Positions 1,116 to 32,728 of a stretch of 45,534 bases of DNA are shown here, piece by piece (positions within the stretch are counted from its first letter, which is position 1; each line of letters begins with the position of its first letter). The position numbers and the translations under genes are program-made. This DNA comes from Thermogemmatispora onikobensis (GTDB lineage Bacteria; Chloroflexota; Ktedonobacteria; Ktedonobacterales; Ktedonobacteraceae): NCBI RefSeq assembly GCF_001748285.1, contig NZ_BDGT01000059.1, positions 1 to 45,534 on the forward strand, in the 5' to 3' direction. The notes beneath the pieces are model-generated. The model had not been told where the DNA came from, did no database searches, and saw nothing but the letters and a program-made list of their open reading frames with translations.

Positions 1116-1158
1116 ATCAGCACGAGGATGCCGCCTACGCCCGCTTAGGGATTGAAAG
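1116..1158 (+). repeat. Degenerate CRISPR repeat
   Basis: The 20 bases ending at 1158 (GCCCGCTTAGGGATTGAAAG) match the 3' half of the array repeats; the 5' half is eroded, with an ATCAG at 1116 resembling the GTCAG repeat start. It reads on the plus strand, opposite to array A, and lies just after the coiled-coil gene. The stop codon of the neighbouring exonuclease remnant falls inside it. Confidence 0.6.
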
Positions 1159-5037: not shown

Positions 5038-5407
5038 AGAGGCAGTAGTGTTCAGGTGGGTCCGATGGAGCGAGCAGCGGATTGCCGACCTGGAGCGGCG
5101 CGTCAGCGAGCTGGAGTTTGTCTACCGGAACCTGGCGAAGGAGACGACCATGCTCTATGGCATCCTGCGGATGGATTTGGATGCCCTCAAGGAGCGAACA
5201 GAGCGGATCGAGCAGCGTCTCGACACGCTGAGTGGAGAGGTCGCGCAGGTCCAGGTGCGCCTGGATCGCCTGGAGCAGCAGATGGACCAGCGCTTTGATC
5301 GACTAGAGCAGCAGATGGGGCAGATTCTGACGCTGCTCCAGAAGCCGCGAGGTAGCAGGGCGGAAGACCGCTCTCGCCCGATGTGGGATTGCAATGAAAT
5401 GAAATGA
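5009..5407 (+). pseudogene. Leader-linked coiled-coil gene, copy 2, start frame disrupted
   Basis: Near-identical to the 661-1110 gene through the RIADLERRVSELEFVYRNL and LDRLEQQMDQRFDRLEQQM segments but without the heptad expansion. Relative to copy 1, four bases (GAGC) are duplicated right after the ancestral ATG (5065), so that start now leads out of frame. The coil frame stays open upstream to an ATG at 5009, which lies in the -35 box and so is an unlikely start; an in-frame GTG near 5049 is possible. The C-terminus runs on through RSRPMWDCNEMK, encoded by a CRISPR-like repeat. It may be translated from a new start, but it looks decayed. Confidence 0.65.
5359..5395 (+). repeat. Degenerate CRISPR repeat
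   Basis: GCCCGATGTGGGATTG (5376-5391) matches the 3' part of the array B (ACAT) and array D repeats exactly, followed by CAATGAAATG instead of AAAG. It reads on the plus strand and encodes the C-terminus of coiled-coil copy 2. Placement matches the degenerate repeat after copy 1. Confidence 0.65.
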
Positions 5408-6323: not shown

Positions 6324-6360
6324 GTTTCAATCCTAGAGGGGCTTCTTCGCTGATTCTAAC
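6324..6360 (-). repeat. Degenerate CRISPR-like repeat
   Basis: A 37 base segment starting GTTTCAATCCTAGAGGGGC and ending GATTCTAAC has the length and both ends expected of a leftward-reading repeat, but its middle is diverged. The stop codon of the TrmB-like pseudogene (6356-6358) lies within it, as with the exonuclease remnant at 1145. Confidence 0.4.
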
Positions 6361-15505: not shown

Positions 15506-15820
15506 ATGAAGGAGAGATCAGGGAGGGAGCGCATGAAGCAGCGAGAGCGGTTACGAGGCCAGCGTGTCAAAGAACGTCAATGGCTCCGGATGGTGACCAT
15601 GACGATCGTGCTTGGAGGCAATAGCCTGCTTCTGTTGCTGGTCTGGAGACATTGGTCGTTGCTGCAGTGTGTCTCTGGGCAGCCCTGTCCTCTCCTGGAA
15701 GGTGCTTCCTTCCGATTGGATACCAGCATTGACTGTCGAGTTTTAATCTCAGGGAGCGGGCGCCACAGGCATGCTGACCTCGTAGCCCGTGTCCTGCAGG
15801 TTAGGGAAGCCCGGTTTTAA
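15506..15820 (+). pseudogene. Small single-span membrane protein with CRISPR-derived tail
   Basis: ATG 15506 has AGGAG eight bases upstream. A very basic N-terminus (MKERSGRERMKQRERLRGQR) precedes one membrane segment (MVTMTIVLGGNSLLLLLVW) and an outside segment LLQCVSGQPCPLLEGASF. From about 15740 the frame runs through a degenerate repeat and spacer of the decayed mini-array, giving a tail (CRVLISGSGRHRHADL…) that is not natural protein sequence. I read it as a gene whose 3' end was replaced by CRISPR sequence. It could still produce a membrane peptide. Confidence 0.45.
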
Positions 15821-15850
15821 TCCTACTTCGGGCGAGAACGGCCTTCTGAC
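15740..15850 (-). CRISPR. Decayed two-repeat mini-array
   Basis: Two repeat-like units read leftward: 15740-15778 (39 bp, eroded) and 15814-15850 (37 bp, GTTTTAATCC… ending CTTCTGAC), separated by a 35 bp spacer. The repeat has the same length and ends as the other arrays but a diverged core (GGATTAAAAC instead of GGATTGAAAC). It is followed immediately by a leader of the shared family. Confidence 0.7.
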
Positions 15851-16050
15851 AGCCCTCTTTCTAGCGGAGCATCAGGAGCAGCGTCCGTCAAGCCGTTTCG
15901 ATGCTCCCAACCAAGCGGTCAGCAGTGACCGTTTCCATGCGGCTCTGATGCCAGCCACGCTGGCCCTCCAACGGCTGGAAGACTGTTCGAGCATTCCACG
16001 CAGCAATGCTCGAAGCAAACGGCAGGAGCGGGAGCAAGAGCGATCGCCTG
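15851..16050 (-). promoter_or_regulatory. Leader E (decayed mini-array leader)
   Basis: Same family as leaders A and B: -35 TTGACG (15886-15891), 17 bp, weakened -10 TCCGCT (15863-15868), and inverted repeat CGGTCA-gcag-TGACCG (15916-15931). One TTCGAGCATT decamer and its inverted partner ATGCTCGAAG remain. The poorer -10 fits the decayed repeats. No coiled-coil gene follows. Confidence 0.7.
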
Positions 16051-16972: not shown

Positions 16973-18936
16973 GTCAGAACCGCGCTTAAGCCCGTTGAGG
17001 GATTGAAAGCTTTTCTAAGTGTATGTTCCCTAATAAATGTGATAATCGTCAGAACCGCGCTTAAGCCCGTTGAGGGATTGAAAGTCACGGGCGGGGCAAT
17101 TGGAAGTCGTCTCAGTTGATGAGTCAGAACCGCGCTTAAGCCCGTTGAGGGATTGAAAGGCCGCAATCGCTGCTAAGGGAGAGATCTACCATCGTCAGAA
17201 CCGCGCTTAAGCCCGTTGAGGGATTGAAAGCGACTCATCATCTCAGATTGTGGTGCCTCCTGTGCCAGAGTCAGAACCGCGCTTAAGCCCGTTGAGGGAT
17301 TGAAAGAAACCCGCCTTATCAAAGCTCCCTCAGATTCATCCATGTCAGAACCGCGCTTAAGCCCGTTGAGGGATTGAAAGGATCATGCGCGCGATAGTGG
17401 ATGCCCTGTCGATTGCGTCAGAACCGCGCTTAAGCCCGTTGAGGGATTGAAAGGGTTCGCCGATATTGGTACGTCGATGGGGTCTTTTTAGTCAGAACCG
17501 CGCTTAAGCCCGTTGAGGGATTGAAAGCCCGAATCGGCGGATGTATGCAGCGATGACCTCAGACCTGGTCAGAACCGCGCTTAAGCCCGTTGAGGGATTG
17601 AAAGGCAGCGCGCTGCGCGGCGAGAAGCGCCAGCCGGCGGATGTCAGAACCGCGCTTAAGCCCGTTGAGGGATTGAAAGTTTCCTATTGCCCCCTATATA
17701 TATTATGGTATCATATTGTCAGAACCGCGCTTAAGCCCGTTGAGGGATTGAAAGCACGCTGGACATCCAGTACCCAGAACCGTCCATCTTCCGTCAGAAC
17801 CGCGCTTAAGCCCGTTGAGGGATTGAAAGATGGCACGTGAAATTGAACGCCTGTATCGGCGAGGTCAGAACCGCGCTTAAGCCCGTTGAGGGATTGAAAG
17901 TCCATGCGAGGGAGCCACTGAAAACCCATTGTGGTCAAGTCAGAACCGCGCTTAAGCCCGTTGAGGGATTGAAAGGCTTCTGCGGTCTCGCCGCTGCTGA
18001 CTGGAGGCCGAGGTCAGAACCTCGCTTAAGCCCGTTGAGGGATTGAAAGGTAACGACCGAGCGCTACTTACGGTCGCTCCGTCCCGTCAGAACCTCGCTT
18101 AAGCCCGTTGAGGGATTGAAAGTGGCCAGTCCAATCGGATATCTGGCCTGGTCAGCTATCGTCAGAACCGCGCTTAAGCCCGTTGAGGGATTGAAAGCCC
18201 TCGCTTTCCCTTGCAAGGGAAGTGTCGCACTGAAGTCAGAACCTCGCTTAAGCCCGTTGAGGGATTGAAAGCCCTCGCTTTCCCTTGCAAGGGAAGTGTC
18301 GCACTGAAGTCAGAACCTCGCTTAAGCCCGTTGAGGGATTGAAAGGCAAACCGGCTGGGTCCGACCACTCACTGATCCGGGTCAGAACCTCGCTTAAGCC
18401 CGTTGAGGGATTGAAAGTGGCTGTGCCGATGGCCGCCGCTGTCACCGGCAAGGTCAGAACCTCGCTTAAGCCCGTTGAGGGATTGAAAGTCGACTTGCAC
18501 GGGCGTGATAGACCGTGCCAGTTGACGTCAGAACCTCGCTTAAGCCCGTTGAGGGATTGAAAGTCATAATCTTACAATAAAACTCTAACACTAATAACGT
18601 CAGAACCTCGCTTAAGCCCGTTGAGGGATTGAAAGACCAACGAGGCGCTCCTGAAATCGCTCGACGAGAGCGATCGAGTCAGAACCGCGCTTAAGCCCGT
18701 TGAGGGATTGAAAGCTTGAAATGAATACCGCACGCAACTACTCTGTTTCCGTCAGAACCGCGCTTAAGCCCGTTGAGGGATTGAAAGACCTCGTCCCAGG
18801 TGCCGCCCGGGCCGAGGATCTCGCGGTCAGAACCGCGCTTAAGCCCGTTGAGGGATTGAAGGGCCAGCTCCTCCAGTCGGCGCCGGATCTCGGAGTCATG
18901 TCAGAACCTCGCTCAAGCCCGTTGAGGGATTGAGAG
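16973..18936 (+). CRISPR. CRISPR array C, 27 repeats, beside cas2
   Basis: Twenty-seven 37 bp repeats run from 16973 to 18936 with 26 spacers (34-42 bp), rightward. Repeats begin GTCAGAACC and end GAGGGATTGAAAG. A single base separates two types: CCGCGC (repeats 1-14, 17, 24-26) and CCTCGC (15, 16, 18-23, 27). The last two repeats are eroded at the 3' end (TTGAAGG, TTGAGAG), marking the old end. It converges with the cas operon, and the cas2 stop is about 180 bp away. Confidence 0.98.
18198..18308 (+). repeat. Duplicated spacer within array C
   Basis: Spacers 18198-18234 and 18272-18308 are identical over 37 bp (CCCTCGCTTTCCCTTGCAAG onward), separated by one repeat. This indicates tandem duplication of a 74 bp spacer-repeat unit. 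Confidence 0.95.
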
Positions 18937-18961
18937 AAGGGATTGAAACCATCGGCACAAA

Positions 18962-19012: not shown

Positions 19013-19049
19013 ATCAGAAGGCCGCTCAAGCCCGCTAAGGGATTGAAAC
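19013..19049 (+). repeat. Orphan CRISPR repeat after array C
   Basis: A 37 bp unit starts ATCAGAAGGCCGCTC and ends CTAAGGGATTGAAAC. Its ends match array repeats and its middle resembles the mini-array and solo cas-promoter repeats more than array C. A partial AAGGGATTGAAAC also occurs at 18937-18949. Confidence 0.75.
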
Positions 19050-21245: not shown

Positions 21246-22226
21246 TCATTGGCGATCAAGCGCACTGGCCACAGTATCGCTGGCAGACGGTAGCTCCGCT
21301 GGCGAAAGGACGTTCAGGCAGCGCGTCTGCCCCATACCCATTGCCGTTTTGTAGCCCACCCCACTGAAGAGGGCCAGGCGAGCAAGTGAGGTCAGCCAGC
21401 GCGCTTGTGCTGCACCCCTCGGCCCTTTCACTTCATAGGTGATGCGTCCCAGAAAGCCCGTCTGTCCAAAGCGACTGGAGGGCAGGTACTGGGTGCGAAG
21501 CTCGTACTGAGACACAATCAGATGGTCTGCACACCAGTCAGCGATCTCTTGGGGGGTCAGACCAGCGGCAGCCAGGCGCAGGCGCTCCGGAGCGAAGAGA
21601 TCCCAGGAACGTGCCAGACTTTCGAAGACAGCAGCCGGCTCAGGAAAGAGCGTCAGCAGCTTCCCCCAGGAGCGCTGCCCTCTGCTAAAGGCGGTGGGAC
21701 TGGCGAATTCAAAGGCATAGTGCTCCTGAACCTCCTGCTCGCGGGCCAACTCCTCGAAGGAAGTGACGGCTACCCACGATGGCCCCTCATGTGTCGGATC
21801 AGGAGCAGCCAGCATACGTGTCACGAGAAGCGGTGTCTGCTCAACGGTCAGAGAGAGCTGCCGGGCCTGTTGAAGACAGGCCCGGAGAATAGCCTGTACC
21901 AGTCGCTCATCTAAGAGGGTCAGACGCAGCCAGTAGCGTTCCCCTGGTCGCACAGGCACTGGTTGCAGGTGGCTGGTGGCAATCTGTAGCTCCTTCACAC
22001 TGAGCTGGCGGAAACCCCAGAGCAAACTGAGGGTGTAGGGGCGACGCTGGTTAGGCTGGTGCAGCCAGGCCGACAGTTCAGGGTCAACCTGGCGCACCAA
22101 CTGCAAGAAAGCCGCCTGGAGCTGCGGGCCACAACTGGGCGTCAGCCAGCCCGGCTCTACTGGCTCTAGCCGCAGCAACATCGAGACCAATGGACCCTGT
22201 TCATCGCCGATAGATGCTGAAGACAT
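21246..22226 (-). CDS. cas6: Cas6 pre-crRNA endoribonuclease
   Basis: 326 aa RAMP protein, longer than minimal Cas6 but normal for I-D. The C-terminal glycine-rich loop GVGYKTAMGMGQTRCL and the preceding GRITYEVKGPRGAAQARWL are characteristic. It should cut each repeat before an 8-nt 5' handle (ATTGAAAG or ATTGAAAC). It is the only Cas6 in the window, so it presumably processes all repeat types present. Start at 22226 follows GGAGGAG. Confidence 0.93.
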   Translation of the reverse strand: MSSASIGDEQGPLVSMLLRLEPVEPGWLTPSCGPQLQAAFLQLVRQVDPELSAWLHQPNQRRPYTLSLLWGFRQLSVKELQIATSHLQPVPVRPGERYWLRLTLLDERLVQAILRACLQQARQLSLTVEQTPLLVTRMLAAPDPTHEGPSWVAVTSFEELAREQEVQEHYAFEFASPTAFSRGQRSWGKLLTLFPEPAAVFESLARSWDLFAPERLRLAAAGLTPQEIADWCADHLIVSQYELRTQYLPSSRFGQTGFLGRITYEVKGPRGAAQARWLTSLARLALFSGVGYKTAMGMGQTRCLNVLSPAELPSASDTVASALDRQ

Positions 22227-22359: not shown

Positions 22360-25023
22360 TTAGAAGAAGAGCGGATCGCTCTCTCCCTGCTGTCCTCGCC
22401 GTCGATCACGCTCCAGGGCCCAGCGAGGGATCTCCGCCGCAAGCTGCCAGGCGAGTGGACCCAGCACAGCCTGGTAACGCGCCGTCCGATCAGCGAAGGA
22501 GATGTCCAGCGCCACAGGGAAGAAGCGCGCTTTCTGGCGCAGCGCTATGAGCCAGGCGACAGTACTGCTCTTCTCTGCGGCCACGAAGGCAGGAACAAAA
22601 CGCTCCTGGAAACAGCTACGCACGCAGGCAGGGAGACCGGTATCATCATTGATGAACTGCGGTCGCAGGCCCCAGAGGGCAGCAGGCCGGTAGGCCCACG
22701 CTGCTTCCCACTCTGCTTGTGAGTGCTCCGGCACCTCCAGACGCAGCCCCACCTGTCGCGGTTTCTCGCGTAAGGTCTGCAGGCGGCAGAAAAGGACCAC
22801 CTCCTCCGGGATGCTGACCTGCCGCTGCTGCTCCTTGGGGAAGCAGGCCCGCTGCCAGTCCTGGGCTGTGGAATAGAAAGTCGCATCATAGGAGCGCAGA
22901 ATGTGGAAGAGATCATAGGAGGTCACGTCCTCGTCTGACAGCCAGTGCTGGGGATCGAAGACCAGCACCTGGGGCGTCTCGAAGCCCTCGCGAAAGGTCC
23001 AGCGGGCATGCTCTCGAAAGTAGATGCTCAGATCCTCTTTGAGCCAGAGAAGCGCCTCCCGACTGCTCCGAGGCCGCTCTTGACGCTTCTGGAGTATAGC
23101 CAGGATGCGCTTCTCGAAGGCCCTCAGATAGGGGATCAGCGGGTCATCCTGCTTCGGCTCCCGTCTGTCGAGGAGAGCGGCGAACCGCTCAAAGGCGGCA
23201 GCGGGAATATGGGTGAAGCCTCCATAAACCTCGGCCCGTTCTTCATACTCCCTCAGCCAGGCGCGTAACTGACGATAGGTCAATGGGCGCTGGCGCTGTC
23301 CCTCTTCGCCGACAAACAACTGCTGCAGATCCTGCAAAAAGCTGTCGAGCAGGGGCAACTCCTCATCTGCCATCCCCTGACCCAGCAGCCCGAGTGTGCG
23401 GAAGAATTCCGCGATCACGCCGCTGCGCACATAGGCGGTCAGATCCTGCCGCGTCGGCATCTGGGCCGCCAGCTTCGCCAGTGTCGCCCGGTCAATCGTC
23501 TTCCCATCCCTGGACGGGTCAGGGCGGCTTTCTGACGCAGCATTCCCTCCTCCCAGATGGCCCTCGAAGAGCCGATAGGTCTCCTGGTCCACAACGACCC
23601 AGGCACGGCAGGGGCCACAGTCCTCTCCTGCAGGCAAGGCCAGGACCCTCCCAACGCGACCCAGGCGCTGGAGCAGTTCATCGCCCGACCAGGCGTCGAA
23701 CAGCAGGAAGTCGAGCGAAGGCCGTGGCTTGCCTGTAGCGGTGGGAGGGATGCCCTGCCCTGCTCGCGTGCGCTCAAAGTTGTAGCCAATATCTACTGTG
23801 GGCGTGGCCAGAATCAATTGGCACTCGCGGGCCTCCTCACGTGCCTGAGTACCCTGGGGACCAGTAATGCGGCCAATACGCTCGCCGGCGGCTGGCCAGC
23901 GCGCACGTAGCTCGCGATAGATCAGATTGATGGTGCGCAGCGAGTTGGAGAGAATGGCCCCTTCGACGGGGAAGCCATCGGCAGGCTGGGCCTCCAGGAG
24001 CTGGCGCAGCCTCGGCCACAGGTGCTGAGCCAGACTCAGCAGTGCATCGCCGGTCTGACGCTGGGTGCCCTGGCCTCCGCCCAGCTCGCCAGCACTGTAG
24101 ATCTCCAGCTCAACAGCGGTCAATGCTCGTACCGGTCGCACTTTGTCCGCCCACGCCTCGGGGACAGGGTCTTGTGGCTCAATCCACTCGGTCTTGATCC
24201 CGAGCTGCTCTAGAAAGCGGCGCATTGCTGGCGAAGGGGTGGCCGTCAACAGACAGATCTGGCGAGGGCTGTCGAGGGCATCGGAGTTGCTGAAGTAGCC
24301 GCAGAAGGCAGACAGCTTCAAAAAGAAGAGGAAGGCGGCGAGTTGCCGGGGACTGTAGTAGTGGACCTCATCGATGATCACCAGGCCAAAGTTCCGCAGC
24401 AGATCGGTCAGCAGCTCCCCGCGGTCAAAGCGATTGTAGGAAGCGGTCAGGATGTAATAGAAAATGTCGGGGTTGGTCACAAAGATGGTGGCCTGCGCCG
24501 TCGAGACATCTTCCTGCCGGGCCGTGACCGGATCGCTGAGCAGCTGACGCAGGTGCCAGCCACGCCGAGACCGCTCTTCAGCAGGCAGCTTCTGCCAGCT
24601 CTTCTGCAGATGGTCGCGCGTCACGGGGATCACCTGGTAGGGTAGTCCATAACGCCGACAGAACTCGCTGGCGCTGCGCACGTGTTGGTCGATCAGTTCG
24701 TTGGTGGGGGCGATGAATAAGGTGTCCCCCAGGCGCGGCGTCAACTGGTCCAGGCCGATCTGGCGCACACGCCCCAGTAAGCGCAGCAGAGCCCCCAGGG
24801 TTTTGCCTGTGCCGGTGGCATGGGTATTGATCACCAGCGGCGCGCTAGCCTGGTACATGCGCCACTGATGGTAGAGGAGCCGGCTCTCCTCCTCTGGTGA
24901 GGCGCCACCGCTCTGGCCTGCTCCCTGTTCTGGCCTGGCGGGAGGGACGGAACCGGTGAGGGCGAGCGGGTGCTCGCCCAACCAGAGGCGCTCGTCGTAC
25001 GGCTGCACGGTGACGGTCAGCAT
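22360..25023 (-). CDS. cas3: Cas3' helicase, type I-D (no HD domain)
   Basis: 887 aa superfamily 2 helicase. Walker A THATGTGKTLGAL (~residue 73), DEVH box FGLVIIDEVHYYSP, motif III LLTATPSP, and motif VI ELLQRLGRVGRVLA are all visible. No HD nuclease domain is present; in type I-D the HD lies on Cas10d, as here. The C-terminal ~300 residues are helical and family-specific. It unwinds target DNA after Cascade binding. It lies directly downstream of csc1, with AAGGAG ten bases before the ATG. Confidence 0.95.
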   Translation of the reverse strand: MLTVTVQPYDERLWLGEHPLALTGSVPPARPEQGAGQSGGASPEEESRLLYHQWRMYQASAPLVINTHATGTGKTLGALLRLLGRVRQIGLDQLTPRLGDTLFIAPTNELIDQHVRSASEFCRRYGLPYQVIPVTRDHLQKSWQKLPAEERSRRGWHLRQLLSDPVTARQEDVSTAQATIFVTNPDIFYYILTASYNRFDRGELLTDLLRNFGLVIIDEVHYYSPRQLAAFLFFLKLSAFCGYFSNSDALDSPRQICLLTATPSPAMRRFLEQLGIKTEWIEPQDPVPEAWADKVRPVRALTAVELEIYSAGELGGGQGTQRQTGDALLSLAQHLWPRLRQLLEAQPADGFPVEGAILSNSLRTINLIYRELRARWPAAGERIGRITGPQGTQAREEARECQLILATPTVDIGYNFERTRAGQGIPPTATGKPRPSLDFLLFDAWSGDELLQRLGRVGRVLALPAGEDCGPCRAWVVVDQETYRLFEGHLGGGNAASESRPDPSRDGKTIDRATLAKLAAQMPTRQDLTAYVRSGVIAEFFRTLGLLGQGMADEELPLLDSFLQDLQQLFVGEEGQRQRPLTYRQLRAWLREYEERAEVYGGFTHIPAAAFERFAALLDRREPKQDDPLIPYLRAFEKRILAILQKRQERPRSSREALLWLKEDLSIYFREHARWTFREGFETPQVLVFDPQHWLSDEDVTSYDLFHILRSYDATFYSTAQDWQRACFPKEQQRQVSIPEEVVLFCRLQTLREKPRQVGLRLEVPEHSQAEWEAAWAYRPAALWGLRPQFINDDTGLPACVRSCFQERFVPAFVAAEKSSTVAWLIALRQKARFFPVALDISFADRTARYQAVLGPLAWQLAAEIPRWALERDRRRGQQGESDPLFF

Positions 25024-27626: not shown

Positions 27627-30353
27627 CTAGCTGATCGCCTCCGCTGCCCCGAGCAGCTGCTCCAGCAGCGGGGCGACCTGGTAACTGAGCGTTAAAGGAT
27701 TCTGGCGCTGCTTGCCGGCTTTCTCCTCGATCAGGCGATCCACCTCATGGTACAGCGCCAGTGGGTCCTGGGCTGCTGCGGTGACCAGGTCATAGAGGAC
27801 TTTCACGGTCGACAGGGTGTCCGGCTGCAGCTTATGGGCCAGCTGATGCAGGAGGGCCAGGCGCCGGCAGAGGGCCCGCACCTGGGGACGGGTCAGTACC
27901 TGCTCGGGTAGTAACCAGACAAGCGCCTGGGGTATCCCTTCAGCCATGAAGGCCACTGGCTCGGACCCGATCATTTCCTGCTCCAGATTGAGCAGTGGCG
28001 TTGGCAGGCGCGAGAGCAGGACGCGGCAGTCAAACCAGGCCGCCAGCACGAGGGCTTTCTCCAGCGCGACCAGGTATTGGCGACCGTAGCCCTGCTGGTT
28101 GATGGTCAACGGCAGGACAGGCGTAGGGCCGAGTGCCTCCGCATAGCGCGGAAGGATCAGTCCTTGATGCAGGTCCATCCGACAGTGCAATTTGTAGAGG
28201 ACCTGACCAGCAGCCAGCCGTTGCCACTGCTCCTCGTCGCGCGTCTCCGGGTCGATCGCCACCGTGTCTTCTCCGATGAGACTCTCGACTGTCTGCCACC
28301 AGGCGCGCAGCAGCGGCTCGGGAAAGAAGCTGTAGGGGAACAGGTGGAGATAGAAGGTTTGCAGCTCGCTGCCCTGCTTGTCGCGATGTGAGGGCCAGGC
28401 CAGCTTTTCTAGCAAGAACTGCGTGCGGCAGATGGGACAGATGTTGCGCTTCGGCTCGCGTGGACTGCCGCCCTCCAGTCGGTTCGAGAATTGCTGCACG
28501 CCAATGCTCGGCGGCACCTGCAGCGCCATCCACTCCTCGGCAGGCAAGGGACTGCTGCAATAGCTGCACTGCCGATCGGTATAGCGCGGATCTGCATAGT
28601 GACGCAGGTTCGCCCGAAAGTCGACCGGCTGCTGCCGCTCCCCGCTGCTCAGATCCCAGAAGCTGAGATGGCGATCCAGATAGTCAAGGATTGCCTCCTC
28701 TTGGGGACTGCTCGTTGAGAGCGCCTGCAAGTCGTCTCCCGCAACTGTCAGCGGTGACGTGCTGGCATCTCCAGCCTCGGCTGCGTTGCTGCCCATTGCT
28801 GAACCCTGCTGGTTGTTGCTGTCGGCAGCGGCGGACTGGGGCGAGGGAGACGCTCTATTCCCCCGTTTACCGCCACGGCCAGTGCGTTGGGGAGCGGCTC
28901 GCTGTGCCTGCTCTTCCAGACGGGCAAGATCGGCCAGGGCGGCGGCTTCCATCTCGAGAAGCGGGGTTGTGGGCAGATCACGGGCCATAACGTAGCCACG
29001 CCGATAGGAGTTGATCAGGGCATAAAGCGGCTGTCGCTCCTCGGGCACCCCAAAGAGACGCGCCACTCGCTGCCAGGCATCCTCGTGCAGGCGCTTCAGT
29101 TCCTCGCCCCGGTGGGCATCGAGGAAGTTCCGGTAGGCCATGAGAAACTCGCCCCGCTGGAGCGCCTCGGGATCAGTGGGCAGCAGCTGCTGCTCCGCCA
29201 GCAGTGCCTGACACTGGGCCCGCAGAGCTGGATCAGCTGCCGCTTGCGGCGAGTTGAGGAAGGTCTCCAGGTCCTGGCGCGCCGCTGTCTCCCGCTCCTG
29301 GCGCCACTCATCGCGGTACTGCTTGCGCCTGACCACGTTGGTGATGCAGCCAAAGATCTGCTCGATGGGTGCGCCGCTCTGGAGGGCCGCCTCGTCGACG
29401 CTGATCCCGGAGGGCCGCGCCTTGATGAACTCCGTCAGCCCTTGCTGCTGCATCTTCGCCAGTCTGTTGACCACCCGCCGGGCCAGCTCGCGCTGCCACT
29501 CGCGCGTCCATTCAAAACGCATACTCCGGTCGAGCAGATAGTCGATGCCTTCGGCATGGAGGAGCAGGGGAATGCAGTGGTGTTCCCCGTAGTGTTCCTT
29601 CAGCATTTCGGCGACCTGGTTATGGATCGTGTTCGAGAGCAGGCCGCGCAGTTCGGCCAGGCGGTGGCCGATGAAGCGGTACCGCTGCCGCGCCCCGCTG
29701 AGATGGAGTCCCTCATTCAGGCGCTCAAGCGCCTTCTGATGAATATGTCGTTCATGACGGCTGGCCTGGTCCGAGCTGTGAGACAGGTCCAGCACGTCCG
29801 CGGTGCGCAGCAGCGCTCGGAGCGGCCCTTCAAGACGCGATCGAGGAAGACGGCACTGCTGCAAAAAAGAGAGGGAAAACTGAGAGATCTGGATTGCCTG
29901 ATCCTGCTGGCTGTCGACCAGAAATTTGATGTCGCGCAGATACTCCTGCCACTCGGGGAAGAAATGATCTGCCTGGAGGGCTGCTAGCTCGCTGGCCAGA
30001 TGCTCCAGGGTGGCCGCGTTGGCATAGCGGACAGCCTTGCCGCTGCTATCCTGGCCATAGGCAGGCAGCTTGTTAATGTCATGGACGGTTATGGCCAGGA
30101 GCAGACAGCGCAGCTCGGTGGCCTCCAGTTGAAAGAGGGGCCGCAGCCGCTCGATGATCGCCGCGCCATTGAGCACGTGCTGCCAGAGGCTTTCCCCTTG
30201 CTTGCTGCCCGTCTGAATGATCTCCTGGTAGCGCCGCAGCCCTTCGTCGGCAATCTGTTGCAGATACTGCTGAAAGACCTGGTCCGGGTCATCGCTCCTG
30301 TAGGTCAGTCCCAGGGCAAGCCAGGGCGAGGACTCCTCAGAGGCCGGGGCCAT
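27627..30353 (-). CDS. cas10d: Cas10d (Csc3) large subunit with HD nuclease
   Basis: About 908 aa from the ATG at 30353; a TTG at 30359 is also in frame and AAAGGAG lies upstream. The N-terminal HD domain shows HVLNGA (~61) and ITVHDINKL (His93-Asp94), the nuclease that cuts target DNA in type I-D. A zinc finger follows in the middle: CSYCSSPL…NICPICRTQF. No GGDD palm motif was seen, as expected for Cas10d. The C-terminus (LYHEVDRLIEEKAGKQRQN) is short, consistent with the small-subunit part being a separate gene downstream. It is first gene of the operon. Confidence 0.94.
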   Translation of the reverse strand: MAPASEESSPWLALGLTYRSDDPDQVFQQYLQQIADEGLRRYQEIIQTGSKQGESLWQHVLNGAAIIERLRPLFQLEATELRCLLLAITVHDINKLPAYGQDSSGKAVRYANAATLEHLASELAALQADHFFPEWQEYLRDIKFLVDSQQDQAIQISQFSLSFLQQCRLPRSRLEGPLRALLRTADVLDLSHSSDQASRHERHIHQKALERLNEGLHLSGARQRYRFIGHRLAELRGLLSNTIHNQVAEMLKEHYGEHHCIPLLLHAEGIDYLLDRSMRFEWTREWQRELARRVVNRLAKMQQQGLTEFIKARPSGISVDEAALQSGAPIEQIFGCITNVVRRKQYRDEWRQERETAARQDLETFLNSPQAAADPALRAQCQALLAEQQLLPTDPEALQRGEFLMAYRNFLDAHRGEELKRLHEDAWQRVARLFGVPEERQPLYALINSYRRGYVMARDLPTTPLLEMEAAALADLARLEEQAQRAAPQRTGRGGKRGNRASPSPQSAAADSNNQQGSAMGSNAAEAGDASTSPLTVAGDDLQALSTSSPQEEAILDYLDRHLSFWDLSSGERQQPVDFRANLRHYADPRYTDRQCSYCSSPLPAEEWMALQVPPSIGVQQFSNRLEGGSPREPKRNICPICRTQFLLEKLAWPSHRDKQGSELQTFYLHLFPYSFFPEPLLRAWWQTVESLIGEDTVAIDPETRDEEQWQRLAAGQVLYKLHCRMDLHQGLILPRYAEALGPTPVLPLTINQQGYGRQYLVALEKALVLAAWFDCRVLLSRLPTPLLNLEQEMIGSEPVAFMAEGIPQALVWLLPEQVLTRPQVRALCRRLALLHQLAHKLQPDTLSTVKVLYDLVTAAAQDPLALYHEVDRLIEEKAGKQRQNPLTLSYQVAPLLEQLLGAAEAIS

Positions 30354-30384
30354 GCGCAATCATCTCCTTTCGTTCGGTTCCAAT

Positions 30385-30422
30385 TTTTCAATCCCTCAGC
30401 GGGCGAGAGCGGCGTTCCGAAC
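30385..30422 (-). repeat. Solo CRISPR repeat in the cas operon leader
   Basis: One repeat-like unit with no spacer-repeat partner. On the minus strand it starts GTTCGGAACGCCGC and ends GCTGAGGGATTGAAAA, in the same direction as cas10d. It ends 31 bases before the cas10d ATG, so it should be in the operon's 5' UTR if transcription starts at or upstream of it. The 3' part matches array A and C repeats closely. Confidence 0.85.
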
Positions 30423-30435
30423 AGGTGATATTATG

Positions 30436-30472
30436 GCTGATTGATACGACAACATTCGTCGTATCAATCAGC
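30436..30472. promoter_or_regulatory. Perfect 15 bp inverted repeat upstream of cas10d
   Basis: GCTGATTGATACGAC (30436-30450), a 7 bp centre, and GTCGTATCAATCAGC (30458-30472). It sits between the WYL gene stop and cas10d. A CATAAT-like -10 (minus strand) lies just inside it, so a bound repressor would block the cas promoter. The WYL regulator next door is the obvious candidate. It could instead act as an RNA hairpin; no T-run follows. Confidence 0.7.
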
Positions 30473-30545: not shown

Positions 30546-31682
30546 TTATCGCTCCTCCTCCGGCGCCTGCATGCTGAGGCCATAGAGCCGTCCCATCTTG
30601 CTGACGACGCTGCGCATTTCCTCTCGCAACGACGCTGGCTCGACCAGCTCCGCTCTCTCCCCGTAGCGTAAGAGCTGGTGGATCACCCGCCACTCATTGT
30701 AGGCCGTCGCCCGAATGAGGATCCACCGCTCCTCTTGCCCTCGCTCGTTCATGCGCACCTCCTCTCGCTCAACCACTTGCGACAACCAGCGCTGACTGAG
30801 GCCGGGCTCAGCGATCCTCGCGTCCAGCCAGAAGCGAAAGGTCAGCACCTGGCGGGGCCGTGTCCTCCCAGTGAGCTGCGGCTCAATCTGCAGCGACTGC
30901 TCCTGAATGCGGTCGATGCGGAACTCCAGAAATTGCCCGCGCTCGGGGTGATACGCCACCAGGTAGAAATGGCCCTCCATATGGATCACGTAGGCGGGAT
31001 CAAGATGCTGATGGGTGATCTCTTTTCCCGAAAGAGGCCGGTAGGTAAAGCGGATGTGCTGGCGCTGCTTTATCGCTCGCGCGATCTTCCTGATCAGCTC
31101 TCGGTAGGGCAGATAGTCCATCACAGGCGCCACATTAAAGTAGACGTAGGGGGTGCGGGCCCACCGTTCAAAGCGCTGCTGCTGCCGCGGTGGCAGTTGC
31201 CGGGCGAGCCGCTCGATGAGCGCCTGCACCTCATCTGCAAACGGATGGCGCGGCTGTGGCTGTGGCAGCGCTTGCGTCGGGTCGGGAGGGGCCAGCCGAT
31301 AGGGGTCCGTGAACATCGAGGCCAGGAAGGCCAGACATTCTACCTCTGTATCTGACAGGGACCAGTGAGGGACGAGGCCCTGATCGTCCTCGAGGACATA
31401 GCGCGCCGGTTGCCTTCCACGCCGCTCCCGAACCAGCACCACGCCAATCTCCTCCAGGATCGCCAGATCTCGCTCGAGCGTGCGATGGGCCCGGCGGAGT
31501 CGGGCATCATCTGTGGCCTCCTCCCGATCGATGCCGTAGTGCAGCCCCAGGCTCTCGAAAATCTGCTTGCGGGTGCAAGGCCCTTGTCGCAGCAGTGCCA
31601 GCAAGCGCAAAAGCCGCTCGAGCCGGAGGACGGCAAGCCTTTCCTCTGAGGAAAAAGGTTCAGCGCGTTGGAAACCGGCCAT
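30546..31682 (-). CDS. WYL-domain transcriptional regulator of the cas locus
   Basis: About 378 aa from an ATG at 31682; in-frame ATGs at 31700 and further upstream are alternatives and no ribosome binding site decides. An N-terminal winged helix (LERLLRLLALLRQGPCTRKQI…RRAHRTLERDLAILEEIG) is followed by a WYL domain (YLVAYHPERGQFLEFRIDRIQ) and a C-terminal WCX-like part. WYL proteins sense ligands or nucleic acids; a WYL protein (Sll7009) represses the type I-D locus of Synechocystis 6803. Here it precedes cas10d on the same strand with a palindrome between them, and diverges from array D. Confidence 0.88.
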   Translation of the reverse strand: MAGFQRAEPFSSEERLAVLRLERLLRLLALLRQGPCTRKQIFESLGLHYGIDREEATDDARLRRAHRTLERDLAILEEIGVVLVRERRGRQPARYVLEDDQGLVPHWSLSDTEVECLAFLASMFTDPYRLAPPDPTQALPQPQPRHPFADEVQALIERLARQLPPRQQQRFERWARTPYVYFNVAPVMDYLPYRELIRKIARAIKQRQHIRFTYRPLSGKEITHQHLDPAYVIHMEGHFYLVAYHPERGQFLEFRIDRIQEQSLQIEPQLTGRTRPRQVLTFRFWLDARIAEPGLSQRWLSQVVEREEVRMNERGQEERWILIRATAYNEWRVIHQLLRYGERAELVEPASLREEMRSVVSKMGRLYGLSMQAPEEER

Positions 31683-31779
31683 GCACTGCTTTCCCTCCAT
31701 CAATGCAAGAGAGATGCCTTTTACCATAGAGTCTTGAGCGCCCGCTGTCAAGGTCCAGGCACCTCTGCTGTCGGGAAAA

Positions 31780-31990
31780 ATATGCTGCTGTTGCCGCTGC
31801 TGCCGTTCGCTTTGAGCATCTCGGCTCCCGGCTTCCCACGCAGCGATGCTCGAAGGGCTTCCCAGGCCGTCGGAAGGCCAGAGTGGCTGGCATCATGACC
31901 GTACAAATGCGGTCAGTAGTGACCGCTTTTTTGGGATGCTCGAAACCGCTTGACGGAAGTCGCTCCTGATGCTACGCTAAAGGGGGTGCT
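31780..31990 (+). promoter_or_regulatory. Leader D: promoter of array D
   Basis: Plus strand: -35 TTGACG (31950-31955), 17 bp, -10 TACGCT (31973-31978), 12 bases before the first repeat. Inverted repeat GCGGTCA-gtag-TGACCGC (31909-31926) is followed by TTTTTT. TTTGAGCATC/GATGCTCGAA hairpin arms lie near 31814-31856. Same family as the other leaders, with the WYL gene in place of the coiled-coil gene. Confidence 0.8.
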
Positions 31991-32698
31991 GTCAGAAAGC
32001 AGGACAAGCCCGATGTGGGATTGAAACTTCATCTGTATTGAGGAGGATCTCATGACTCACCGTCCGTCAGAAAGCAGGACAAGCCCGATGTGGGATTGAA
32101 ACCGCTATCGGGTCTTGGCTCTGCCCACCACCCTCGACGGGGTCAGAAAGCAGGACAAGCCCGATGTGGGATTGAAACTGACCAGTTTCGTAGATCGATG
32201 ACCACAGCACCGCAGGGTCAGAAAGCAGGACAAGCCCGATGTGGGATTGAAACTCAGCAGCGGCTGCTCGCTGACAACCGAGCCAGGTCAGAAAGCAGGA
32301 CAAGCCCGATGTGGGATTGAAACGTCGAGAGAGAGGGCGGGCTACGGCTCCGCCCCAAGACCGTCAGAAAGCAGGACAAGCCCGATGTGGGATTGAAACG
32401 ATGAGTACGTAACCGTGGCGCTCTACGAGCGCCGTGGCGTCAGAAAGCAGGACAAGCCCGATGTGGGATTGAAACTAAGAGGAATTTTTGATAAATAGTC
32501 GTAATATTCTGGTCAGAAAGCAGGACAAGCCCGATGTGGGATTGAAACCTTCCGACATGACTACTGATGGGAAGAGCGTAATGCGAAGTCAGAAAGCAGG
32601 ACAAGCCTGATGTGGGATTGAAACCTTGCAAGATGCGGAGCCTGATCCTGAAAGGGAGCGCGTCAGAAAGCAGGACAAGCCCGATGTGGGATTGAGAG
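31991..32698 (+). CRISPR. CRISPR array D, 10 repeats plus a truncated one
   Basis: Ten 37 bp repeats start at 31991, 32066, 32142, 32217, 32287, 32363, 32439, 32512, 32588 and 32662, rightward, with 33-41 bp spacers. Repeats begin GTCAGAAAGCAGGAC and end GATGTGGGATTGAAAC. Repeat 9 has one substitution (CCTGATG) and repeat 10 is eroded (TTGAGAGG). A truncated eleventh copy of the 5' part lies at 32759-32780. Confidence 0.97.
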
Positions 32699-32728
32699 GG
32701 ATTAGAAGGGGTTGAAGACGAGAGAAAG

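Follow-up and report, generated by a model that had tools for sequence, protein, structure and literature searches.

A solitary CRISPR repeat in the 5' UTR of a type I-D cas operon of Thermogemmatispora: remnant of an array or possible cis-acting element

The type I-D cas operon of Thermogemmatispora onikobensis, a heat-loving soil bacterium, carries a single CRISPR repeat in front of its first gene, cas10d. This element is a genuine dispersed copy of the CRISPR repeat of the organism, of the array-terminal kind, and is fixed in the 5' UTR of the operon. Its best explanation is an action in cis on the cas mRNA, which is plausible rather than established and to which we give somewhat less than even credence; a relic without function has about the same probability. 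All positions given without a locus name refer to the window, i.e., the whole stretch of 45,534 nucleotides that was analysed.

On the minus strand, the order of the genes is WYL, (repeat), cas10d, cas11-like, csc2, csc1, cas3', cas6, cas4 and cas1. The presence of cas10d, csc2, csc1, cas3' and cas6, which are all recognised by NCBIfam equivalogs above cut-offs, makes this a type I-D locus. The large subunit gene cas10d/csc3 (27627..30353, minus strand; NCBIfam TIGR03174) starts with an ATG at 30353-30351, an alternative in-frame start being the TTG at 30359, and is preceded by the Shine-Dalgarno sequence (SD) AAAGGAG (30364..30370, minus strand), which is kept in relatives. The operon also includes cas6 (21246..22226, minus strand; NCBIfam TIGR01877 above cut-off), and the gene of the WYL-domain regulator lies at 30546..31751 on the same strand (Pfam WYL E 2.9e-15, WCX 1.1e-9). 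Among named relatives, T. aurantia A1-2 is the closest, with a near-identical genome and a Cas10d that is 99.8% identical. Besides the cas6 of the operon, each Thermogemmatispora genome holds a second Cas6-like gene away from it (G000:C2:35517-36338 and orthologues), which scores below the family cut-off.

The solitary repeat is 36 nt long (30421..30386, minus strand; TTCGGAACGCCGCTCTCGCCCGCTGAGGGATTGAAA) and is sense to cas10d. The first-pass annotation had rightly placed a repeat on the coding strand before this gene, but at 30385-30422, i.e., with one extra base on each side; the spacing of 31 bases that it gave holds between 30385, the end of this longer stretch, and the ATG. The repeat is identical at 31 of 36 positions to one array repeat of T. 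aurantia, and at 30 of 36 both to another array repeat of that species and to array 1 of the window. A match of at least 30/36 has a chance expectation of about 1e-6. When the window was scanned, the bulk of chance matches stopped at about 21-23 and, beyond the four arrays, no other site exceeded 28/36. Furthermore, only 0.18 occurrences of GGATTGAAA are expected by chance per window. Given this identity and these expectations, chance similarity was rejected.

Both ends of the repeat had been described as conserved. This is true of the 3' end, where the ATTGAAA handle is kept together with the CCC-N5-GGG mini-hairpin, but the conservation of the 5' end is partial, with TTCGGAAC where the arrays have GTCGGAAC. 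The centre of the repeat is TCTC, that of the array repeats GTAA or TTAA. The element is a solitary repeat unit in the usual sense of a single repeat-like sequence outside arrays that is similar to the repeats of the host. It had also been said to have no partner, which is correct for the gap between WYL and cas10d, where no second repeat was found, but not for the window, which holds other solos at six sites: 1122-1157(+), 5359-5394(+), 6324-6360(-), 15814-15850(-), 19014-19048(+) and, inside cas3', 23500-23536(-). The idea that a special central variant, GCTCTCGCCCG, marks the solos was dropped, since arrays of T. aurantia and HOG59 carry it too. A special RNA structure of the cas10d leader was rejected, this leader being no more structured than its shuffles (z-scores from -0.5 to +1).

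The region upstream of the repeat contains a perfect palindrome, GCTGATTGATACGAC-N7-GTCGTATCAATCAGC (30436..30472), whose arms are 15 nt long, and the hexamer TAATAT (30428..30433, minus strand), a putative -10 of the cas promoter that ends 6 nt 5' of the repeat. T. aurantia and T. carboxidivorans share the core of the palindrome at this position. Since the block made of the palindrome and TAATAT is conserved before cas10d in T. carboxidivorans and altered in T. tikiterensis, which lacks the repeat, it probably corresponds to the promoter/operator region of the cas genes and not to a CRISPR leader. A scan of the region for consensus sigma-70 promoters found no match, so that TAATAT as -10 and the start site of the cas mRNA remain putative. 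As it is directly 3' of this conserved block, the repeat probably begins the cas mRNA, which agrees with its earlier placement in the leader of the cas mRNA; cas6 belongs to the same operon. Because WYL and cas10d are co-directional, it would also sit in any read-through mRNA.

The palindrome is probably an operator of the regulator, presumably bound by the WYL protein. The first-pass annotation had envisaged a design that is not based on a classical repressor; this is weakened by the WYL regulator and the conserved palindrome, which indicate that such a repressor probably acts as well. Type I-D systems usually come with a WYL regulator, and a negative role was reported for one such protein (PMC10212523). 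The I-D locus of that study resembles the one described here by its WYL regulator but differs from it in that no repeat in the cas mRNA is involved.

Absence of the repeat from all close relatives, which had been proposed as a refutation, was not observed: T. aurantia carries it at the same place, where T. carboxidivorans holds a copy that has diverged. In T. tikiterensis and HOG59, cas10d is not preceded by a repeat. The copy of T. carboxidivorans has kept the 3' half GCCCG-N4-GGGATTGRAA (GCCCGCTCAGGGATTGGAA), while its 5' part is different. This retention could be due to constraint or to a separate origin, because array repeats too vary most in their 5' part. The sequences of the window and T. 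aurantia differ too little to reveal selection, and the base change that the window has in the centre of the repeat is not of the kind seen in arrays. About 93 nt that separate the promoter from the repeat in T. carboxidivorans are missing in the window and in T. aurantia, so that in these two the putative promoter abuts the repeat.

The sequence that follows the repeat points to its origin. It reads GGGATTGAAAA-ATTGGAACCGAACG and includes a tail with a duplicated handle, ATTGGAACCGA (30374..30384, minus strand), like those found after leader-distal terminal repeats (for instance GGGATTGAAAAAGGGATTGGAACCGATGG in L034). On their leader-distal side, arrays of the same genome end with GGGATTGAAAAAGGGATTGGAACCGATGG or GGGATTGAAAAAGGGATTGGAACCTGC, and a doubled handle ends other arrays too. 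Thus, the cas10d solo looks like an array-terminal repeat. Such a tail is what would be expected from a leftover of array rearrangement, i.e., a terminal repeat that was inserted or left before cas10d and is transcribed without any function. This explanation, whose probability we place slightly below one half, also agrees with the decay or absence of the repeat before cas10d in relatives and with the scattering of arrays and solos in these genomes, several solos having no sense gene behind them. Some of the solos of the genus are antisense into gene ends or lie 3' of genes, as relics would, and are counter-examples to an arrangement in front of start codons. Furthermore, T. tikiterensis has an obvious array relic upstream of WYL, where a remnant of a CRISPR leader is fused to the 3' half of a repeat (L026:8367-8389, minus strand); the window has an intact array there (~31990-32700).

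A collapsed array with its own leader is a different matter and was rejected for the cas10d repeat, since the block upstream is the probable cas promoter region and is present without the repeat in T. tikiterensis. No CRISPR leader was found directly 5' of the repeat, where array leaders do not match, unlike the leader-bearing solos L030-L033, which do show an array leader. Elsewhere in the window, a CRISPR leader followed by a single repeat with the handle GATTAAAA (15814-15976, minus strand) is an empty or collapsed array, and the same repeat is found in T. aurantia. Duplicated or triplicated 3' handles (GGGATTGAAAAGGGATTGAAA...) are seen on leader-distal terminal repeats and on many solos (window 18917-18948 and 32679-32705; L034:219-275; L032 and L033).

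Solitary repeats are not limited to the front of cas10d. The cas operons of K. racemifer and of five Thermogemmatispora genomes (those of the window, T. aurantia, T. carboxidivorans and T. tikiterensis, and HOG59) were scanned for repeats by local alignment, and the sense repeats directly before genes scored 19-33, against a shuffle maximum of 13 (one rough shuffle per locus). A sense repeat directly precedes cas10d in the window, T. aurantia and T. carboxidivorans, whereas T. tikiterensis has a full-length one directly before cas3' (L026:15366-15402), HOG59 a degenerate one directly before csc1, and K. racemifer one directly before the SD of WYL (L028:8515-8550). The csc1-cas3' gap of T. tikiterensis (L026:15319-15428) is 75 nt longer than that of HOG59 (L025:5284-5318), a difference equal to one repeat-spacer unit, and the repeat lies in this gap; a whole unit may have been inserted. 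Within cas3' itself, a repeat-derived sequence in sense orientation (23500..23536, minus strand; 28/36) lies in a 16-residue in-frame insertion, which holds a whole sense repeat in the window, T. aurantia and T. carboxidivorans; T. tikiterensis, HOG59 and K. racemifer lack this insertion. Apparently, a repeat has entered a coding sequence here.

These solos do not seem to be general in the class. Other cas operons of Ktedonobacteria with known repeats of their own (L037, L038, L041, L043, L044 and L048) showed no convincing solo, the few scan matches in L041 and L048 looking like array tails; class-wide generality was rejected for these six loci, the array-less L042, L046, L047 and L049 lying outside this comparison.

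Besides cas genes, several unrelated genes of the genus are preceded by a repeat. Sense repeats stand directly before the start of a CopC/CopD gene in two species, before the start of an N6-methylase-domain gene in two species (the gene being apparently broken in one of them), and directly before the start of a gene of T. tikiterensis that we take to be PqqB-like from its N-terminal sequence. Coiled-coil genes beside or inside arrays are also preceded by repeats. In four species (L102, L112, L113 and L114), a truncated repeat immediately precedes the SD of a zinc-ribbon gene. When T. carboxidivorans and T. tikiterensis are compared, the ~53 aligned positions before the start of this gene differ only at two positions of the hairpin loop and by an indel that duplicates the handle, whereas the sequence further upstream is largely different; the UTR and its repeat are conserved across the four species. 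This is the best sign of constraint on a repeat, and it is suggestive, but it falls short of proof because part of the conserved stretch is the SD. The conservation across species of the zinc-ribbon and CopC UTR repeats argues against relics.

At the CopC/CopD, N6-methylase and coiled-coil genes, a CRISPR leader accompanies the repeat that directly precedes the SD. This could mean that array ends or leader-repeat units have been reused as 5' UTRs, the A-rich handle close to the SD aiding translation and the leader, where it is kept, supplying a promoter, without any need for Cas6; this is an improbable explanation in our opinion. Such a reuse would be in line with the frequent duplication of handles beside the SD. 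However, no leader can be recognised at the solos of cas10d, cas3' and the zinc-ribbon gene, and the hairpin half of the repeat is retained along with the handle.

The orientation of the solos was assessed by searching 47 genomes of the class for the pattern repeat handle - SD - ATG, with antisense matches as control. The six Thermogemmatispora genomes gave 13 sense matches versus 1 antisense. Outside this genus, K. racemifer being left aside, 11 sense and 10 antisense matches amount to background. Since seven of the 13 sense matches lie within arrays, the fair comparison is 6 sense versus 1 antisense, and three of these six are orthologues. The six are located outside arrays or at array ends, before real genes: cas10d (three times), the methylase gene and two coiled-coil genes. 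Counting by hand, ~8 of ~20 distinct solo loci of the genus combine sense orientation with a place directly before a start codon, for which the binomial probability is 3e-6 to 6e-3 with an assumed background of 5-15%, the solos having been found partly by their 3' half. This strong sense bias and the nearness to start codons in the genus, together with the balanced control outside it, speak against relics without function.

Cas6 enzymes use the small hairpin and the handle of repeats. If the cas10d repeat acts in cis, transcription from the promoter beside the palindrome would yield a cas mRNA that begins approximately at the repeat. The Cas6 of the operon would bind the small CCC-N5-GGG hairpin and cut before AUUGAAAA, as could be expected from Cas6 biology. 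The 5' end of the cut cas10d mRNA would then be AUUGAAAA, comparable to a crRNA handle, and 31 nt would separate it from the AUG. The pseudo-guide behind this handle, of about spacer length, would cover the SD and the AUG and would correspond to the part of a crRNA that Csc1/Csc2 normally coat. As the SD and the AUG survive the cut, cleavage alone would be no off-switch. Free Cas6 or free Csc1/Csc2 could occupy the pseudo-guide, and translation of cas10d would fall when Cas proteins exceed pre-crRNA, giving feedback. The recurrence of the same repeat-start arrangement at other cas and non-cas genes of the genus is consistent with this action, as are the location of cas6 in the same operon and the second Cas6 in the genome.

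It is rather unlikely, yet conceivable, that the dispersed sense repeats together form a post-transcriptional regulon in which the 5' UTRs of cas and non-cas genes are targets of Cas6 and/or Cascade subunits. Its non-cas members would be the zinc-ribbon, CopC/CopD and PqqB-like genes and that of the N6-methylase, a restriction-type enzyme, with the cas operon also under control. If the repeat acts in cis, nature would offer an example of protein-coding mRNAs, including that of the effector itself, under the control of CRISPR processing proteins, and mRNA control would be joined to solitary repeats, which so far are known mainly as phage decoys or trans guides. Even if the cas10d repeat is only a relic, the spread of repeats into cas operons throughout the genus, one of them within the cas3' coding sequence, points to an unexplained mode of repeat movement.

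Solitary repeat units of phages are RNA anti-CRISPRs (Racr) that bind Cas6f and Cas7f (PMC10651486). Like the Racr and solitary repeat units of phages and plasmids, the cas10d repeat is a single sense repeat, here after a putative promoter, and could in principle engage Cas6 and Cas7. Unlike them, it sits in the leader of the host's own cas mRNA and is followed at once by an SD and a start codon, with no mobile element seen, and the repeats of the genus precede host genes. A leader that titrates Cas6 and Cas7, and so lowers immunity instead of controlling its own mRNA, has the viral repeats as precedent, often directly after a promoter (PMC10651486). This is very improbable here: the repeat belongs to the host cas operon itself, a Cas7 filament would probably find almost no RNA upstream of it, and a decoy that is present once per cas mRNA would be weak.

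CreR and standalone repeats, which both give regulatory RNAs in cas loci, were reportedly described by Shmakov et al. in 2023. Such RNAs control cas promoters in trans (PMC12737573). The cas10d repeat resembles CreR as a CRISPR-derived element of a cas locus with possible autoregulation, but differs in being one repeat only, inside an mRNA, where it would act in cis rather than in trans. As guides of this type are known in type I systems (PMC12737573), the processed leader might load Cascade and repress a promoter in trans, which has in our view hardly any likelihood. CreR elements have two repeats flanking a spacer-like sequence, and only one repeat is present in the WYL-cas10d gap; their spacer is partly complementary to the cas promoter next to a PAM, and in the window no such match was better than those of shuffled guides with a GTN PAM. 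Within the locus, nothing stands out as complementary to the pseudo-guide that follows the cas10d-leader repeat. More widely, four solo pseudo-guides and the spacer of the K. racemifer mini-array were compared with their own loci, where their seed matches next to GTN, an assumed motif that may not be the PAM of the system of the window, were no better than those of shuffles; a trans guide with a target in these loci was rejected on this basis.

The closest parallel to control in cis is synthetic: in PERSIST, engineered Cas6/Csy4 sites in mRNA UTRs let a CRISPR endoRNase control the mRNA (PMC9095627). The window likewise has a repeat in an mRNA UTR, but this case is natural and the control putative. 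In a literature search of partial coverage, no account was found of a single repeat that occurs naturally in the leader of a cas mRNA and acts in cis.

Some coiled-coil genes have a peculiar relation to arrays. Two paralogous ORFs of the window with heptad-like repeats (661-1110 and ~5069-5404) lie beside CRISPR leaders, and each is then followed by a solo repeat (1122-1157 and 5359-5394). Small coiled-coil genes are also located between CRISPR repeats like giant spacers in T. tikiterensis (L104:5926-6543) and HOG59 (L103:4570-4911); one of them is inside a running array, and the SD comes directly after a repeat.
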